The position numbers and the translations under genes were made by a program. From positions 1 to 48,233 of the IMG/VR virus record IMGVR_UViG_3300021178_000017: a DNA stretch of 48,233 bases. One strand, 5' to 3'. This document shows positions 2,333 to 17,490 of this stretch, in pieces (the stretch's first letter is position 1; every line of letters starts with the position of its first letter). The notes under the pieces were generated by a model. That model ran no database searches, had not been told where the DNA came from, and was given only the letters and a program-made list of their open reading frames with translations. Source of the stretch: a virus.

Positions 2333-2810
2333 ATTTGACCCGGACATCGTCGTCTGGGAGGCCCCCTTCAACCCCGTCAGAGAATTGATTGAGAAGGTCC
2401 GCAAGCAAGCCGCTGCGGCCTCGCGTGGCGCATGGAATGAGGTCGCGATCAAGGAAGAGGTCTTCGGTGGCTACAATGTATCGACGATCGAGCTTCTCGC
2501 CCAGATCAAAGGTGCTGTGCTGATGGCGGCCGCGCGAGCTGGCAAGCCGACCGAGGGCTACGCACCGCGGTCGTGGCGCTCGACGCTCAAGCTGCCACGT
2601 CCGCCGGCTGGTCTGATCACTTGGCAGGCCAAGCAGAAATGGACGAAGCAGGCAACGCTTGCGTGGGTTCGCCGAATGGGCGGACAAGTCGAGAGTGAAG
2701 ATGCGGCTGATGCCTTCGGGCTGGTTTTTCATTCACTCCATGGGGAGCCTGGGGCGCGTCGTGCCCAAGGTGACCTTCTCGCCCTTGCAGAGGATTATCT
2801 GAGAGCATGA
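2163..2810 (+). CDS. RuvC-like Holliday junction resolvase
   Basis: This 215-residue protein has the RNase H-like fold pattern of RuvC resolvases, which cut four-way DNA junctions during phage recombination and before packaging. Likely metal-binding acids are Asp8 in ALGIDQATRSGW, Glu66 in DIVVWEAPF, and Asp180/Asp183 in ESEDAADAFGL. I chose the ATG at 2163 because it follows a clear AGAGGG site and places the first catalytic strand at the N-terminus; an in-frame start at 2112 adds only an unconserved leader. It overlaps the next gene by ATGA, so the two are probably co-translated. Confidence 0.75.
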   Translation: MTTALGIDQATRSGWCHGGTKLPLDQWSTGVFKSPKRDEAGERLIIIEDSVASLISKFDPDIVVWEAPFNPVRELIEKVRKQAAAASRGAWNEVAIKEEVFGGYNVSTIELLAQIKGAVLMAAARAGKPTEGYAPRSWRSTLKLPRPPAGLITWQAKQKWTKQATLAWVRRMGGQVESEDAADAFGLVFHSLHGEPGARRAQGDLLALAEDYLRA

Positions 2811-5077
2811 GCGACTATCATCGGTTCCTCGCCAAGAAGTGTCTGGTCGATCCACCTACGGGCATCAGCTATCGTGTTTCGGTTCCAGAAGCGATGAAGC
2901 CGCATCAGGCGGACATTGCGCGATGGGCGCTTCGTCGCGGTCGCGCTGCCGTGTTTGCCGGAACCGGTCTCGGGAAGACGCTGATCGAATTGGTCTGGGC
3001 GCGACAGGTGGCCGAGCATACCGGCAAGCCCGTTCTCATTCTGGCACCCCTCGCTGTGGCGCATCAGCATGTCCGCGAAGGGGCACATTTCGGATTGGTC
3101 GCTATACTCGCCAAGAGGCAATCCGATGTCGGGTCGGCCAGCGTGTTCGTTACCAACTACGGCAAGATGGACCATTTCGACATGGCATCGTTCGGCGGTG
3201 TCGCGCTAGACGAAAGCTCAATCATCAAGAGCCATGATGGCAAGACACGCGAGCGGCTGATCCGCGAGTGTCAGGGTGTCCCATTTCGATTGGCTGCCAC
3301 GGCCACGCCCGCACCGAACGATTTTATGGAGTTGGGCAACCACGCCGAGTTCTTGGGCGTCATGTCCTATGCCGAGATGCTCGCCATGTTTTTCATCCAC
3401 GATGGCGGCGAGACGCAGAAGTGGCGGCTGAAAGGTCATGCGCAATCCGACTTCTGGAAATGGATGGCGTCTTGGTCGGTGATGCTCAGGAAGCCCTCCG
3501 ATCTCGGCTATCCGAATGACGGCTACGACCTGCCTCCGCTGTTCACGCAGCAGCACACGGCCGCAGTAGAGTACCGAGCGGACTTGGACACTGGCACGCT
3601 CTTTCCGATTGAGGCGCGGACTATGCAGGAGCGTATCGGGGCACGCCGATCAAGCATTGATGAGCGGGTGGCGCTCGCGGCCGAAATAGTCGCGACCAAG
3701 GCTGACGTTCCCTGGGTTCTGTGGTGCCAGTTGAATGACGAATCAGCGGCATTGGCGAAGGCGATTCCTGGAGCCGTCGAAGTGCGCGGTAGCGATGATG
3801 AGGATGATAAGGAGCGCAAGCTCATAGCCTTCTCGGAAGGTCGCATTCGAGTCCTTGTGAGCAAGCCAAGCCTGACTGGCTTCGGGCTGAATTGGCAACA
3901 CTGCGCAGATACGATTTTCGTCGGTCTCAACGACAGTTTCGAGCAGGTCTATCAAGCGACACGGCGGTTCTGGCGGTTCGGCCAGACCAAGCCGGTGACG
4001 GCGCATTTCATCGCGTCGGAGCTAGAGGGGGCGGTGGTCGCCAACCTTCGGCGCAAGGAAGCTGACGCAGAGCGAATGGCTGTGGAGATGGTGAACCACA
4101 TCGCGGACCTATCAGCGGCGGAATTGCATGGGATGGAGAGGACGAAGGCTGGCTATGAGCCGCGACAGGTGCAGCCGCCGACGTGGCTACCGGCCTCTCT
4201 GAAGGCCGTAGACGAGGCACATGGGCCTGACTGGTCTCTCTACATGGGCGACGCTGTAGAGGCGCTGGCGGGCTTGCCAGAGGCATCTGTGGGCTATTCC
4301 GTGTTCTCGCCGCCGTTCTCGTCCCTCTACACCTATTCGAACTCCGACCGCGACATGGGCAATTGCTCAGGGGATGACGAGTTCTTTGCCCATTTCGATT
4401 TCCTCCTGTCAGAGCTTTATCGCGTGCTCCTACCAGGGCGCTCGGTGTCGATGCACTGCATGGACCTGCCGACATCGAAGGTGCGCGACGGCATCATCGG
4501 GCTTCGCGATTTCCCCGGAGAGTTGATCAGGGCTGGTGAGCGGATGGGCTTCGTCTACCACTCATCGGTCGTCATCTGGAAAGACCCGGTGACCTCAATG
4601 CAGCGCACGAAGGCGTTCGGACTCCTGCACAAGACGATCCGCAATGACAGCTCCATGTCGCGCATGGGCATCCCCGACCGCGTGGTGACCTTGCGGAAGC
4701 CGGGCGAGAACCCTGTGCCGATATCGCATGGCGAAGACTATCCCGTCGATCGGTGGCAGCGGATTGCCTCGCCGATATGGGATGACATCAACCCCTCTGA
4801 GACGCTGCAATTCCGCGCGGCGCGGGAAGGGAACGATGAGCGCCACATCGCGCCGCTTCAGTTGGAAGTGATTCGCCGCTGCGTTGAACTCTGGTCAGCG
4901 CCGAAGGACATCGTGCTTACTCCGTTTGCCGGCATCGGCTCCGAACTCTATGTCGCTGTCGACATGGGCCGACGTGCGATGGGGATCGAGTTGAAGCCGA
5001 CCTACTTTCAGCAAGCAGTTTCCAATTTGCGCTACGGTGATTCAATCCGTGGCGGCTCGCTATTCGCCAAAGCATAA
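2807..5077 (+). CDS. SF2 helicase fused to a DNA methyltransferase
   Basis: The 756-residue protein joins two enzymes. Residues about 30-450 are a superfamily 2 (SNF2/DEAD-like) helicase: Walker A AGTGLGKT at 51-58, motif II DESS at 135-138, motif III ATATP at 164-168, and a C-terminal lobe with SKPSLTGFGLNW and the arginine-finger region QATRRFWRFGQ. Residues about 470-756 are a beta-class amino-methyltransferase, with catalytic SPPF at 501-504 ahead of the SAM-binding FAGIGS at 707-712 and GIELKPTYFQQA after it. SPPF suggests N4-cytosine or N6-adenine methylation. It could couple DNA translocation or remodelling to methylation of the phage genome, perhaps for protection against restriction. 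The target site is unknown. Confidence 0.85.
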   Translation: MSDYHRFLAKKCLVDPPTGISYRVSVPEAMKPHQADIARWALRRGRAAVFAGTGLGKTLIELVWARQVAEHTGKPVLILAPLAVAHQHVREGAHFGLVAILAKRQSDVGSASVFVTNYGKMDHFDMASFGGVALDESSIIKSHDGKTRERLIRECQGVPFRLAATATPAPNDFMELGNHAEFLGVMSYAEMLAMFFIHDGGETQKWRLKGHAQSDFWKWMASWSVMLRKPSDLGYPNDGYDLPPLFTQQHTAAVEYRADLDTGTLFPIEARTMQERIGARRSSIDERVALAAEIVATKADVPWVLWCQLNDESAALAKAIPGAVEVRGSDDEDDKERKLIAFSEGRIRVLVSKPSLTGFGLNWQHCADTIFVGLNDSFEQVYQATRRFWRFGQTKPVTAHFIASELEGAVVANLRRKEADAERMAVEMVNHIADLSAAELHGMERTKAGYEPRQVQPPTWLPASLKAVDEAHGPDWSLYMGDAVEALAGLPEASVGYSVFSPPFSSLYTYSNSDRDMGNCSGDDEFFAHFDFLLSELYRVLLPGRSVSMHCMDLPTSKVRDGIIGLRDFPGELIRAGERMGFVYHSSVVIWKDPVTSMQRTKAFGLLHKTIRNDSSMSRMGIPDRVVTLRKPGENPVPISHGEDYPVDRWQRIASPIWDDINPSETLQFRAAREGNDERHIAPLQLEVIRRCVELWSAPKDIVLTPFAGIGSELYVAVDMGRRAMGIELKPTYFQQAVSNLRYGDSIRGGSLFAKA

Positions 5078-12566: not shown

Positions 12567-13237
12567 TGGTCTTCACGCTACCGAAGCCGCGTGAGAAGCG
12601 GGCATCGAAGAAGCAGAGCCATCCCGCCGCATTCGACGCCAAAGTCAGAATCCGCCAACTCGTCCTCTCAGCCATTCCAGAGCCGCGCGTGTTCGATGCC
12701 TTCGCTGGCGAGGGCGGGATGTTCAGGGCCGTCTGGTCGCAAGCCAAGGAGTACGTCGGCTGTGATCTGGAATGGCGCAAGGACGGCCGGAAGATGTTCG
12801 TTGGGGATAATCGGCGCGTCCTTCGTGCGGTCGAACTTGAGCGTTTCAACATCTTCGATCTTGATGCCTTTGGCAGTCCGTGGGAGCAAGCCATCATCAT
12901 AGCCGATCGCCGGCCGGTGGCCGCAGGCGAGTTGATCGGCATTGTGATCACCGAGGGCGTAGCGATGTCACTCGCGGGAAACCAAATGCCGATGGCGATG
13001 CGAGAACTCGCCAGCCTGCCAGGCCGGAATATGGTGGGCCAGCGTCGGGCCGCTGAACTGGTCTACGAGCGGGTAATCGCCGGCCTAGCTAAGAGGATGG
13101 GCTGCAAGATCGAGCGCCGTTGGGAAGCCAGGGGCAAGACCGGGGCGCATCTACGGTATACCGGCCTTGTCCTAAAGGGCAGCGAGGGCCTTCGGCCGCG
13201 GGTGCGGGAACTCGCGGAAGAGCTTGCCGTCGAGTAG
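12566..13237 (+). CDS. Trm1-like SAM-dependent methyltransferase
   Basis: The 223-residue protein has a class I methyltransferase core. Motif I is VFDAFAGEGGMF (about residues 41-52), an acidic second strand is YVGCDLEW, and a motif IV-like stretch is FDLDAFGSPWEQA. The D-x-D-x-FGSP core resembles Trm1-type tRNA guanine-N2 methyltransferases, but the protein is far shorter and lacks their C-terminal domain. The substrate (DNA, tRNA or protein) is open. The ATG overlaps the ParB stop by one base. The 3' end overlaps the convergent DUF5131 gene by 66 bases, an unusually long tail-to-tail overlap. Confidence 0.6.
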   Translation: MVFTLPKPREKRASKKQSHPAAFDAKVRIRQLVLSAIPEPRVFDAFAGEGGMFRAVWSQAKEYVGCDLEWRKDGRKMFVGDNRRVLRAVELERFNIFDLDAFGSPWEQAIIIADRRPVAAGELIGIVITEGVAMSLAGNQMPMAMRELASLPGRNMVGQRRAAELVYERVIAGLAKRMGCKIERRWEARGKTGAHLRYTGLVLKGSEGLRPRVRELAEELAVE

Positions 13238-14056
13238 ACCGCCTCCCTTGCCGTTGGTCTTCGGGTCAGCGACTTCCGCGTGGGATCTGGAAAAGCCGTC
13301 GAGGAAGATCGGGTTATTCCCGTAGTGTCCCCATTGCTTATGGAAGTAGGCGATGCCGAGGTCCGCGCATTGCCGCTGCATCGCACGAGCCCAGAATGGA
13401 TCGCCAGTCCTGGCATGCGGGCCGCTCTCCCCGCCGAAGATCACCCAGTCGGGAACGATGCCTCGGTCCATTCGGTCGCCAAGATCGGGCCGTATATTGA
13501 GCGGCCCGAGCGCCGGCTCGTAGCTGATGAATCGGACCACGGCCGGTGCCTCGGCCACGAATGGCCACAGCTTGTCGAACTGAGCTTGGTTCTCGGTGGT
13601 CACGCCAAGCCAGATGTTCCGGTGCTTCTCCAGCCAGTCAAAGCCGACCCGCTTCGCGAGGTTCTGCGGCCGCTTGGTTAGCATCAGCCAGTCGAGGTTC
13701 GGGCAGGCGTCGATCAGGTCGAGGAGATCCTTCAGCCACTCGATCGGAACTTGGTTGTCGAGCCAGTCAGACAACGAGGAGCAGAAGACACGCTGACGAT
13801 GGCCGTGCTGAAGATCGAAGGCCGTAGCTTCGCGGTTCCACTTGAGCGGTCGCTTCCAGGTCGATGCGGCGGTGCGCTTGCGTTCAACAGCCCAGTTCTT
13901 GTCGTCGGCCGGGACGGTCCATTTATGGAAGCGGGCGAGATCGGCCGCATAACATGCGTCACATGCCGGGGCGATCTTGGTACAGCCAATCCATGCATTG
14001 AACGTGGAATTGGTCCATTCGATCTTTGAGAACTCGCCCAAGTCAGCATCCTCCAT
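13172..14056 (-). CDS. DUF5131 family protein (phage Gp37/Gp68)
   Basis: The 294-residue protein matches the Gp37/Gp68 (DUF5131) family: KIEWTNSTFNAWIGCTKIAP, then CDACYAADLARFHKW, MLTKRPQNL, and IFGGESGPHAR. Cys25, Cys32 and Cys35 (C-x6-C-x2-C) look like the cluster-binding set of radical-SAM-like proteins, though no radical reaction is proven for the family. Homologues occur on many phages and integrative elements, and the true substrate is unknown. The gene is convergent with the Trm1-like methyltransferase and divergent from the small gene at 14243. Confidence 0.8.
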   Translation of the reverse strand: MEDADLGEFSKIEWTNSTFNAWIGCTKIAPACDACYAADLARFHKWTVPADDKNWAVERKRTAASTWKRPLKWNREATAFDLQHGHRQRVFCSSLSDWLDNQVPIEWLKDLLDLIDACPNLDWLMLTKRPQNLAKRVGFDWLEKHRNIWLGVTTENQAQFDKLWPFVAEAPAVVRFISYEPALGPLNIRPDLGDRMDRGIVPDWVIFGGESGPHARTGDPFWARAMQRQCADLGIAYFHKQWGHYGNNPIFLDGFSRSHAEVADPKTNGKGGGLLDGKLFREFPHPRPKALAAL

Positions 14057-14948: not shown

Positions 14949-15521
14949 ATGCCAGTCCCTCAAGCGCACCTCCGCGCCCTCATTAGCGAGCATGTCGCCA
15001 TCCGGAAGGCCGGCCGCCCCGTCGAGCCTCTTCTGATCCCCGACGAGCGTACCCGCGTCGTTCTTCGTGGGGTGGGCAAGGTCTTCGGCTCTCTGGCTGA
15101 GGCCGCCGCAGTTCTTAACGTTAGCCGCTTCGCGCTGTCAAAGTTCCTCAAGCGGCATCCTGAGATGCAGGACGCCTACGACACTGGCTGGATGGAAGGC
15201 TGCATCTCGCTGCGGCGATCCAATATCCAACTCGCTCGTAAGAACGCCGCAATGGCTATCTTCCTCTCCACTAACGTTCTTGGGATGGACAATTCGGGGT
15301 ATGCCAACTATCGCGCCGCGCAGACTGGGGCGCCTGGCGAGAGCGCTGTGAATGTCGAAGGTCCGTCACCTCGAGAGAAAGTCGAAAGCCGAATTGCTCG
15401 CCTCGCTGACGCAATACGAGCGTCGGAAAGCGCTGAGGAAGCTGACCGACAGCGAGTTCGCGAGACTGGCGACGGACTGGCGGTTCTGGGCGAGACCGAA
15501 ACAACTCCCGCCGCCGGGTGA
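14949..15521 (+). CDS. Terminase small subunit
   Basis: The 190-residue protein lies directly before the large terminase gene and carries a helix-turn-helix (GSLAEAAAVLNVSRFALSKF, about residues 47-66) typical of small terminases that recognise the packaging site. A helical oligomerisation region (SIQLARKN-like, residues 90-110) follows, with an acidic C-terminal tail probably contacting the large subunit. Its last 170 bases overlap the large-subunit gene in another frame. Identification rests mostly on position plus the HTH. Confidence 0.7.
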   Translation: MPVPQAHLRALISEHVAIRKAGRPVEPLLIPDERTRVVLRGVGKVFGSLAEAAAVLNVSRFALSKFLKRHPEMQDAYDTGWMEGCISLRRSNIQLARKNAAMAIFLSTNVLGMDNSGYANYRAAQTGAPGESAVNVEGPSPREKVESRIARLADAIRASESAEEADRQRVRETGDGLAVLGETETTPAAG

Positions 15522-17490
15522 CTGGTTAACTTGGCTATTGATGGCCGGCCGCGGGTTCGGCAAGACTCGGACCGGCACTGGTTGGACCCACGAAGAGGCG
15601 ATGCGCGAGGGCTGCCACATTGCCCTAGTCGCACGCAATCCAGCAGACTTCCGAGACTATATGTGGGATGGTCCCGGCGGGTTCCGGCGTAACTGTCCGA
15701 TGGGACAGATGCCGACCTATCAGTCATCAGTCCGTCGCGTCACTTGGCCGAACGGGTCAATTGGGACGATCTACTCGGGCGAGGACCCGGAAGCCATCCG
15801 CGGCTTCTCGGGGTCACGGTTCTGGATCGACGAGTTCGCGAAGTTCCGATATCCGGAGGACCTCTGGGACAATCTTCAGTTCGGCATGCGCGAGGTCTCA
15901 GTCAATAGACCGCGCGGCTTGATCACGACGACTCCGAGGCCGTCGCCCATTCTGAGAAAGATCATAAAACTGAAGGGGACGGTCAAAGTCGTTGGGACCA
16001 CCTACGAGAACCGCAACAATCTGGATCCGGCGTTCTTTGAGACAACGATCAAGGCCTATGAGGGGACGCGGCTCGGCAGGCAGGAGATCCAGGCAGAGAT
16101 TCTCGACGACGTTCAAGGAGCTCTCTGGACGAGGGCTATGATCGACAAGGCGCGAGCTGCGCCGGCCCGCATCCCGGATATGTCGCGGATCGTGGTGGCG
16201 ATTGATCCTTCTGGCGCGCGAGGTGCCGACGATGAGAATGCTAACTCTATTGGTATTGTCGTGGCTGGTCGTGGCGTTGATGGCCGTGGCTACATCCTGG
16301 CTGATCGGTCATGTAAACTTTCTCCGGCTGGATGGGCGCGCCGGGCACTCTTGGCCTATAACGGTTTCAGTGCGGACCGCATCATTGCCGAGCGGAACTT
16401 TGGCGGCGCGATGGTCGAGAGCACCATCAAGCTAGTCGCCGAGGCCATGGAGCCGCCGATGATCGTCTCCTACAGCGAGGTCGTGGCGTCCCGTGGGAAG
16501 GTCCAGCGGGCCGAGCCGGTAGCGGCTCTCTACGAGCAGGGGCGCGTCAGCCACATAGCTTCTGACACCCTCGAACTGGTCGAACTCGAGGATCAGCTTT
16601 GCCTGGCCGCCGGAACTCGCATTGAGACATCGCGTGGGCAAACACCGATCGAGGATGTGAGACGCGGCGATCTGGTGGCGACGCGAAATGGGCTTGCTCC
16701 AGTGCGTTGGGCTGGGAGGACTGGTGTGTCATCGTCATTAGTGCGAATGTGTACTCCAAGCTCAATGCTGGAAGCGACACCATGTCATCCCGTTTTCGTC
16801 CAGGACAAGTTTGTCAGTGCGCGACATGTGCGGCCTTCGGACAGCCTCCGCGTAAGCCCCAGATGGGGAAGCACGGCGAGCCAGTGGCATGGCGCGGGCG
16901 CTGGTATCACAGGATGGAGCGAGGGCATTTCCGGCACGCTAAGGGAGCTTTGCTTCATAGAGAAATCTATGAAAGCCATGTTGGACCGATCCCTCCTGGA
17001 TGGCATGTCCATCACCTCAATGGCGATCCCGGCGACGACCGTCCCGAGAATTTTGAGTGCATCAGTCCCGCAGAGCACTATCGACGCCATCCGCCGCGTG
17101 GCTGGCATCAGTCAGCAACTCATGAAACTCGCTCTCGCGCCACCAAGCGGATGTGGACAAATCGCAAGCCGCGCCCGTTCGTCTGTGTGGAGTGTGGTGC
17201 AAGCGGCCAGACGGTTAATCTGCGGCCTCAGTTCTACTGTTCAGTCAAATGTCAGCGACGTGCATTGTATCGCCGCAGCCGTGCCCGTATACAATCTGCA
17301 GGTCGAGGAGGGGTTCCTGCCTGAGTATTTTGCGAATGGCATTCTCGTTCACAATTGCCAGATGACCACATCGGGGTATCTTGGCGAAGGTTCGCCAGAC
17401 CGAGTGGACGCCGACGTGTGGGCGCTGACTGAGTTGATGCTGCCGAAGTCGACTTACGATTCGTCGATGAGTTGGGTATCTGGATCATGA
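15352..17490 (+). CDS. Terminase large subunit precursor containing an intein
   Basis: This is the packaging motor and nuclease. The N-terminal ATPase has Walker A AGRGFGKT at 65-72 and Walker B FWIDE at 157-161. The RNase H-like nuclease has Asp285 (VVAIDPSG), Glu347 (IIAERNFGG) and Asp686 (SPDRVDADVWAL). Between the last two, residues 417-668 are an intein, with Cys417 at the start and His-Asn before Cys669 at the end. Splicing would join EDQL to CQMTTSGYLGEG and give a normal 460-residue terminase. The insertion lies 17 residues before the last catalytic acid, the kind of conserved place inteins prefer. The start at 15352 overlaps the small subunit gene but is needed for the conserved N-terminal helix region. 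Confidence 0.9.
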   Translation: MSKVRHLERKSKAELLASLTQYERRKALRKLTDSEFARLATDWRFWARPKQLPPPGDWLTWLLMAGRGFGKTRTGTGWTHEEAMREGCHIALVARNPADFRDYMWDGPGGFRRNCPMGQMPTYQSSVRRVTWPNGSIGTIYSGEDPEAIRGFSGSRFWIDEFAKFRYPEDLWDNLQFGMREVSVNRPRGLITTTPRPSPILRKIIKLKGTVKVVGTTYENRNNLDPAFFETTIKAYEGTRLGRQEIQAEILDDVQGALWTRAMIDKARAAPARIPDMSRIVVAIDPSGARGADDENANSIGIVVAGRGVDGRGYILADRSCKLSPAGWARRALLAYNGFSADRIIAERNFGGAMVESTIKLVAEAMEPPMIVSYSEVVASRGKVQRAEPVAALYEQGRVSHIASDTLELVELEDQLCLAAGTRIETSRGQTPIEDVRRGDLVATRNGLAPVRWAGRTGVSSSLVRMCTPSSMLEATPCHPVFVQDKFVSARHVRPSDSLRVSPRWGSTASQWHGAGAGITGWSEGISGTLRELCFIEKSMKAMLDRSLLDGMSITSMAIPATTVPRILSASVPQSTIDAIRRVAGISQQLMKLALAPPSGCGQIASRARSSVWSVVQAARRLICGLSSTVQSNVSDVHCIAAAVPVYNLQVEEGFLPEYFANGILVHNCQMTTSGYLGEGSPDRVDADVWALTELMLPKSTYDSSMSWVSGS
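16600..17355 (+). mobile_element. Intein (Hint splicing domain) in the large terminase
   Basis: The 252-residue intein is in frame with the terminase. Block A is CLAAGTRIETSRGQTPIED, with GDLVATRNGLAPVRWAG after it. Block B is the TPCH of LEATPCHPVFV, and the C-terminal blocks are PVYNLQVEEG and YFANGILVHN followed by Cys. These are the residues needed for protein splicing: the first Cys, the block B His, the penultimate His and Asn, and the +1 Cys. The 450 or so bases between the two halves read, in this frame, as low-information Ser/Ala/Ile-rich sequence with no endonuclease. The endonuclease lies in another frame of the same DNA. Confidence 0.88.
16782..17324 (+). CDS. HNH endonuclease overprinted on the intein
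   Basis: In a frame shifted from the terminase/intein frame lies a 180-residue HNH nuclease. The core is WHVHHLNGDPGDDRPENF (17001-17054) followed by ISPAEHYRRH, the classic HNH_3 pattern with the catalytic His and metal-binding residues. A C-terminal zinc finger has CVECG and FYCSVKCQRR. The ATG at 16782 has a GGAAG site 6 bases upstream; an ATG at 16863 and the longer frame from 16707 are alternatives. It would be a homing nuclease that spreads the intein, made separately from it. That separation is unusual, since intein nucleases are normally in frame. Confidence 0.8.
   Translation: MSSRFRPGQVCQCATCAAFGQPPRKPQMGKHGEPVAWRGRWYHRMERGHFRHAKGALLHREIYESHVGPIPPGWHVHHLNGDPGDDRPENFECISPAEHYRRHPPRGWHQSATHETRSRATKRMWTNRKPRPFVCVECGASGQTVNLRPQFYCSVKCQRRALYRRSRARIQSAGRGGVPA

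Follow-up and report, generated by a model that had tools for sequence, protein, structure and literature searches.

The large terminase subunit gene (terL) of the virus record analysed here, a 48 kb stretch of DNA referred to below as the window, carries a complete intein, and the bases coding for this intein also contain, in another reading frame, a gene for an HNH endonuclease (Table 1). A domain search with the 712-residue TerL product returned the Pfam models Terminase_6N (1.8e-17), Hint_2 (3.2e-11) and Terminase_6C (1e-6), and the intein_Cterm model TIGR01443 scored above its own cut-off. The first-pass annotation had placed a complete intein in the terminase frame, which is borne out by its limits and motifs: Cys1 (16600), a block B of the TxxH type (TPCH) and the terminal YFANGILVHN, in which the His-Asn pair ends at Asn252 (17355) and is followed by a +1 Cys. 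Moreover, two TerL relatives, L002 and L003, have no intein at this site and read DQM^CQM and DQM^VAM, respectively. Upstream, a 190-residue open reading frame with no Pfam match (14949-15521), possibly coding for the small terminase subunit, overlaps the start of terL (15352) by about 170 bases.

Table 1. Features of terL and of the overlapping HNH gene in the window.
Feature	Coordinates	Strand	Remarks
terL, large terminase subunit gene including the intein	15352..17490	+	Open frame, 712-residue precursor; Terminase_6N, Terminase_6C, Hint_2
N-extein of TerL, 416 residues, ending ...LVELEDQL	15352..16599	+	Intein-free relatives L002, L003
Intein, 252 residues, Cys1...HisAsn, +1 Cys	16600..17355	+	Hint fold; top structure matches are mini-inteins
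N-terminal Hint half, residues 1-90	16600..16869	+	pLDDT 86-98; kept in relatives
Block B (TPCH) of the intein	about 16777-16788	+	Within the N-terminal Hint half
HNH endonuclease gene, 180 residues, ATG start, TGA stop	16782..17324	+	-1 frame relative to terL (start offset 2); mean pLDDT 88.3
N-terminal CxCxxC motif of the HNH protein	16812..16829	+	Over structured Hint sequence just past block B; double-coded zone
Intein-frame middle, residues about 91-210, low-confidence linker	16870..17229	+	pLDDT 45-62; low host-frame identity
HNH core, HH...N...H, HHLNGDPGDDRPENF...EHYRRH	17010..17090	+	HNH_3 3.6e-14
Zinc ribbon CxxC...CxxxC (CVECG...CSVKC)	17184..17252	+	Conserved Cys
C-terminal Hint half, VPVYNLQVEEG...YFANGILVHN	17230..17355	+	pLDDT 91-97; TIGR01443
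C-extein of TerL, 44 residues, CQMTTSGYLGEGSPDRVDADVWALTEL...	17356..17487	+	terL reading frame

An AlphaFold model of the intein, built with a 46-row alignment, displays two confidently predicted halves (residues 1-90 and 211-252) flanking a poorly predicted middle (residues 91-210), and its top fold matches are mini-inteins (E 6e-7), in agreement with a Hint fold. The bases of this middle segment also code, in the -1 frame, for the HNH core and the zinc ribbon of the second gene, whose product was modelled with high confidence by AlphaFold; I-HmuI was its sole convincing fold match, weak as measured against solved structures (Foldseek 4.8e-3). The low confidence of the intein-frame middle, set against the confident HNH fold, suggests that this part of the intein is probably a floppy linker, whereas the folded nuclease is encoded by the same DNA.

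The HNH frame is open from stop to stop over 16626-17324 and matches Pfam HNH_3 as well as PHROG HNH families. The catalytic H, H, N and H of an HNH homing endonuclease (H77, H78, N90 and H99) and the four cysteines of the zinc ribbon (C135, C138, C153 and C157) are all invariant over 43 relatives, confirming the HNH core and zinc finger that had been read from this frame in the first-pass annotation. The ATG at 16782 proposed there also stands, since relatives share the N-terminus encoded from this position, with the pattern VCxCxxC...RKxQxGK, but the accompanying GGAAG is only a weak Shine-Dalgarno (SD) match. A start at 16863, initially favoured on the basis of an alignment with the TJE1 and MD07 sequences introduced below, was dropped because closer relatives conserve the N-terminus from 16782. 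When the intein was recoded synonymously, the HNH frame was left open over 16782-17321 by chance in 1.5% of cases (293/20000), so that openness alone is weak evidence in such G+C-rich DNA. Taken together, the HNH match, the residues of the HNH core and zinc ribbon that are invariant in relatives, and the pattern of selection exclude a chance overlap.

In close pairs of relatives, the HNH frame of the overlap gave dN/dS values such as 0.03/0.52, 0.05/0.54 and 0.04/0.48, a ratio well below 1, whereas these bases read in the terL frame gave values such as 0.13/0.03, 0.14/0.07 and 0.14/0.01, mostly above 1; the upstream part of TerL in these pairs shows normal third-position change. The pair L049/L079 and the pairs around L043/L053/L061 are exceptions, with no host-frame ratio clearly above 1. 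The close pairs thus indicate that purifying selection on the overlap acts in the HNH frame only, the outcome of comparing both frames in relatives as the first-pass annotation had proposed. Among ten members of the HNH subfamily of the window, change is fastest at third codon positions of terL ahead of the HNH start and at third codon positions of the HNH frame within the core, and over 16782-16862 neither frame is free, both being about 42% identical. The CxCxxC motif within this zone is invariant in the window, L019, L020 and L021, and both frames are equally conserved at the motif. These patterns indicate that 16782-16862 is truly double-coded, the Hint strand that follows block B and the CxCxxC of the HNH protein sharing the same bases. 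The earlier claim of two truly overlapping coding sequences is therefore upheld by the two open frames and their domains, by the relatives, which keep the HNH frame open and not filled with stops, and by the pattern of selection.

Single-protein scans detected no relatives of the HNH protein of the window in viral or genome contigs, unlike alignment-led contig scans, by which they were recovered. A tblastn search with the HNH protein matched terL in two phages, Tetrasphaera phage TJE1 and Rhodobacteraceae phage LS06-2018-MD07. Further searches contributed Acinetobacter phage Highwayman, the gut phage contig MT838676, one Halobacterium plasmid and one Streptomyces plasmid, and each of these six named records has an intein-bearing TerL gene with the HNH in its -1 frame. 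Three of them (TJE1, LS06-2018-MD07 and Highwayman) are annotated with one TerL gene and no nuclease. A first scan of viral contigs with an HNH alignment yielded 80 loci, in 70 of which (66 distinct) the HNH lies inside a long open frame of another register; a scan with the HNH subfamily of the window added six distinct loci and a second broad HNH scan a further 53. With the window included, the total amounts to 132 distinct overprinted loci, where distinct denotes a different HNH DNA sequence and some loci are closely related; 131 are at -1 and one is in the other frame. This sole +1-frame case (L044/L046) is found in an intein-bearing TerL of high G+C content. No in-frame version of the HNH was found among the scanned loci by a motif test, a check that could miss unusual cases.

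The elements that host overprinted HNH genes include actinobacterial, alphaproteobacterial, Acinetobacter and haloarchaeal ones, and the host genes are mostly terL, at several insertion sites, but also portal and one probable recombinase gene. In Pfam searches of 56 containing genes, most matched Hint or intein models, most matched terminase domains and two matched portal domains, and all 56 aligned inteins have Cys1 and a final Asn with C or S as the next residue. Among the insertion sites are ELEDQ^C (the group of the window), DNH^C, ALYEQ^C, SPDR^C and RLRGPQ^C. In L092 (2204-3952) the intein with an overprinted HNH lies in a non-terminase gene that, from its sequence, probably encodes a single-strand annealing recombinase, and L048 and L101 have two inteins per TerL, one at the Walker A site and a farther one with the overprinted HNH. 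The recurrence of the double-coded arrangement in more than 130 other viral sequences points to a widespread element and not to a quirk of a single genome; the out-of-frame HNH is a design and no frameshifted oddity.

HNH and Hint distances correlate beyond the relatedness of TerL (partial r of 0.35); for instance, L064 and L095 are 63% identical in HNH and 51% in Hint, compared with 28% in TerL. Intein-free TerL relatives exist and are without the HNH, and free-standing members of the same HNH family adjoin terL in several phages. In the HNH tree, overprinted and free forms are intermingled, with at least 12 changes between them, of which well-supported branches force only one, a result compatible with a single origin of overprinting as well as with several. 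A further arrangement occurs in Vibrio phage 1.245.O (L012, 2899-3889), where the second TerL intein is split into IntN, an HNH open frame and an IntC ending in VVHN^C; the terL frame has stops at the HNH, which is a distant relative of that of the window. In the TerL of this phage, the Walker A site is occupied by another intein, the first of the two.

With a probability of roughly 0.85, the locus is a mobile intein in a phage terL whose homing nuclease is a second gene on the same bases, a reading for which the anatomy, distribution, selection and predicted folds are shown, whereas splicing, internal initiation, cutting and homing are inferred. Translation of the terL frame would yield a precursor with two Hint halves around about 120 low-confidence linker residues, and excision of the intein would restore TerL. 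Initiation at the internal ATG (16782), in the -1 frame, would produce the free 180-residue nuclease, which most likely cuts intein-free terL at or near LEDQ[LM]^C, a target suggested solely by the insertion pattern. Cutting of the empty allele would then lead to the intein and the nuclease being copied together.

The HNH protein could instead serve as a terminase packaging cofactor, given that some packaging machines include HNH proteins (Kala et al., as cited in PMC4422536) and that free relatives of this HNH occur near terL. This is unlikely, since the HNH sits in inteins and moves with them between unrelated TerL proteins, is also found in portal and in a recombinase-like gene, and is dispensed with by the intein-free TerL relatives.

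The means by which a separate nuclease would be produced can be approached from its start region. An SD-like motif precedes 46% of the HNH-frame ATGs at the expected distance, compared with 15% of the remaining ATGs of these genes (p of 1.6e-7), and an ATG or SD-linked start is present at the expected position in 74 of 78 loci; a clear SD start is absent in nearly half of the loci, and the ribosome site of the window itself is weak. Programmed -1 frameshifting by ribosomes translating terL, which would deliver the nuclease as a TerL-IntN-HNH fusion, is compatible with the -1 overlap in 131 of the 132 loci and with a slight excess of in-phase -1 slippery heptamers (9/77 loci against about four expected, few loci in all). 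Such heptamers are, however, missing from 88% of loci, the window among them, the HNH frames possess a Met of their own with an excess of SD motifs, and one locus sits in the other frame. The preference for -1 is also predicted by stop-codon statistics: when HNH genes were recoded with host codon use, the mean probability of an open terL frame was 0.10 at -1 and 0.006 in the other frame, so that stop-codon chemistry favours -1 by about 16:1. The frame preference requires no special mechanism, and frameshifting, in and out of the terminase frame as initially suggested, is unneeded and distinctly improbable. Free-standing HNH relatives have fewer stops in the -1-type frame in 14 of 14 cases, and in none of the 14 is that frame fully open; in the overprinted loci the open terL frame is clearly maintained.

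The first-pass annotation had favoured an in-frame HNH intein displaced by two compensating frameshifts, and the HNH indeed occupies the exact position of the endonuclease domain of classical inteins. This origin appears wrong or superfluous, and we consider it very improbable: the same layout recurs with intact open frames in 131 distinct loci, the scans found no in-frame member of this HNH family, the HNH has a start and a stop of its own, and close free-standing relatives adjoin terL. Assembly indels, likewise, cannot account for so many independent loci. The settling of an HNH gene in a mini-intein, the third option raised at the outset, fits best. An RNA intron bearing an open reading frame, with the open terL frame being incidental, is a scarcely credible identity for the insert, for although HNH-bearing phage introns are known (PMC3428280), the intein motifs and Hint fold are complete and no Rfam match was found within the window, a group I or II intron RNA core included.

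As to why a mobile intein should carry its nuclease gene in this manner, an HNH gene with its own stop could be accommodated in a gene under translation only in a frame other than that of the host, and only if the host frame were free of stops, which is more easily attained at -1. It is probable that overprinting is the usual form for phage terminase inteins with this HNH family, which would be widespread and old two-layer elements of bacterial and archaeal viruses, their splicing and homing proteins being separate, encoded in overlapping frames and moving as a unit. Stop-codon statistics would determine the frame, and in short zones the shared bases would encode folded portions of the two proteins.

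I-HmuI is intron-encoded. It is an HNH homing endonuclease (PDB 1u3e) and the best fold and profile match to the HNH protein of the window, although the overall similarity is weak (TM 0.32). Fractured genes, in which the two halves of a split intein are separated by a free-standing endonuclease gene, were reportedly described by Dassa et al. in 2009; the free nuclease gene between IntN and IntC, a form seen in the TerL of Vibrio phage 1.245.O, is a shared trait, but in the window the terL frame is uninterrupted between the two halves and stays open across the nuclease, so that the intein is a single chain. Mycobacteriophage TerL inteins are large inteins with an in-frame endonuclease (PMC5050341). 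They share the Hint splicing domain, the TerL host and an endonuclease located between the Hint halves, but their endonuclease is built into the intein as a domain, whereas in the window it is a separate overlapping gene, offset by 2 from terL. An 'intein-encoded HNH endonuclease ... located out of frame' was noted in brucellaphage TerL (PMC4422536, 2015). That HNH open frame likewise lies over the middle of TerL, but, going by the description in that paper, the case is a single remark on near-identical phages, with no analysis of splice motifs, selection or distribution. The ShiLan domain is an out-of-frame HNH insert in DNA methylases with no splicing motifs (PMC11855218, 2025). It resembles the window in having an HNH gene out of frame in a host gene that stays open, in its disjunct distribution and, by our reading of its coordinates (GTG at base 18), in the same -1 relation; the insert, however, sits in DNA methylases and its translation in the host frame lacks intein motifs, while the carrier in the window is a complete intein.

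A literature search that covered few subscription journals brought up no description of inteins with overprinted nucleases as a general class, the precedents being the brucellaphage remark and ShiLan. Such inteins are mobile elements of a widespread kind that has gone almost unreported, hidden because annotation tends to report a single frame and to overlook the second. The class shows a way for a nuclease gene with its own stop to live in an essential gene, and connects three forms of one HNH family, namely free-standing, overprinted and within a split intein. It also supplies numerous naturally overlapping genes for measuring selection frame by frame, as well as natural inteins whose nuclease is removable with the splicing frame untouched.

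Elsewhere in the window, a helicase and N6_N4 DNA methylase fusion (2807-5077), in which no insert was noticed, is of the gene kind in which phage Pacc40 carries an HNH insert out of frame (PMC11855218). On the minus strand, a DpdA-like protein (610-1425; Pfam DpdA, 2.9e-40) suggests that the phage may carry a 7-deazaguanine DNA modification, and a DUF5131 protein (13172-14056; 6.9e-69) also matches the PADLOC candidate-defence model PDC-M41B/M30B.
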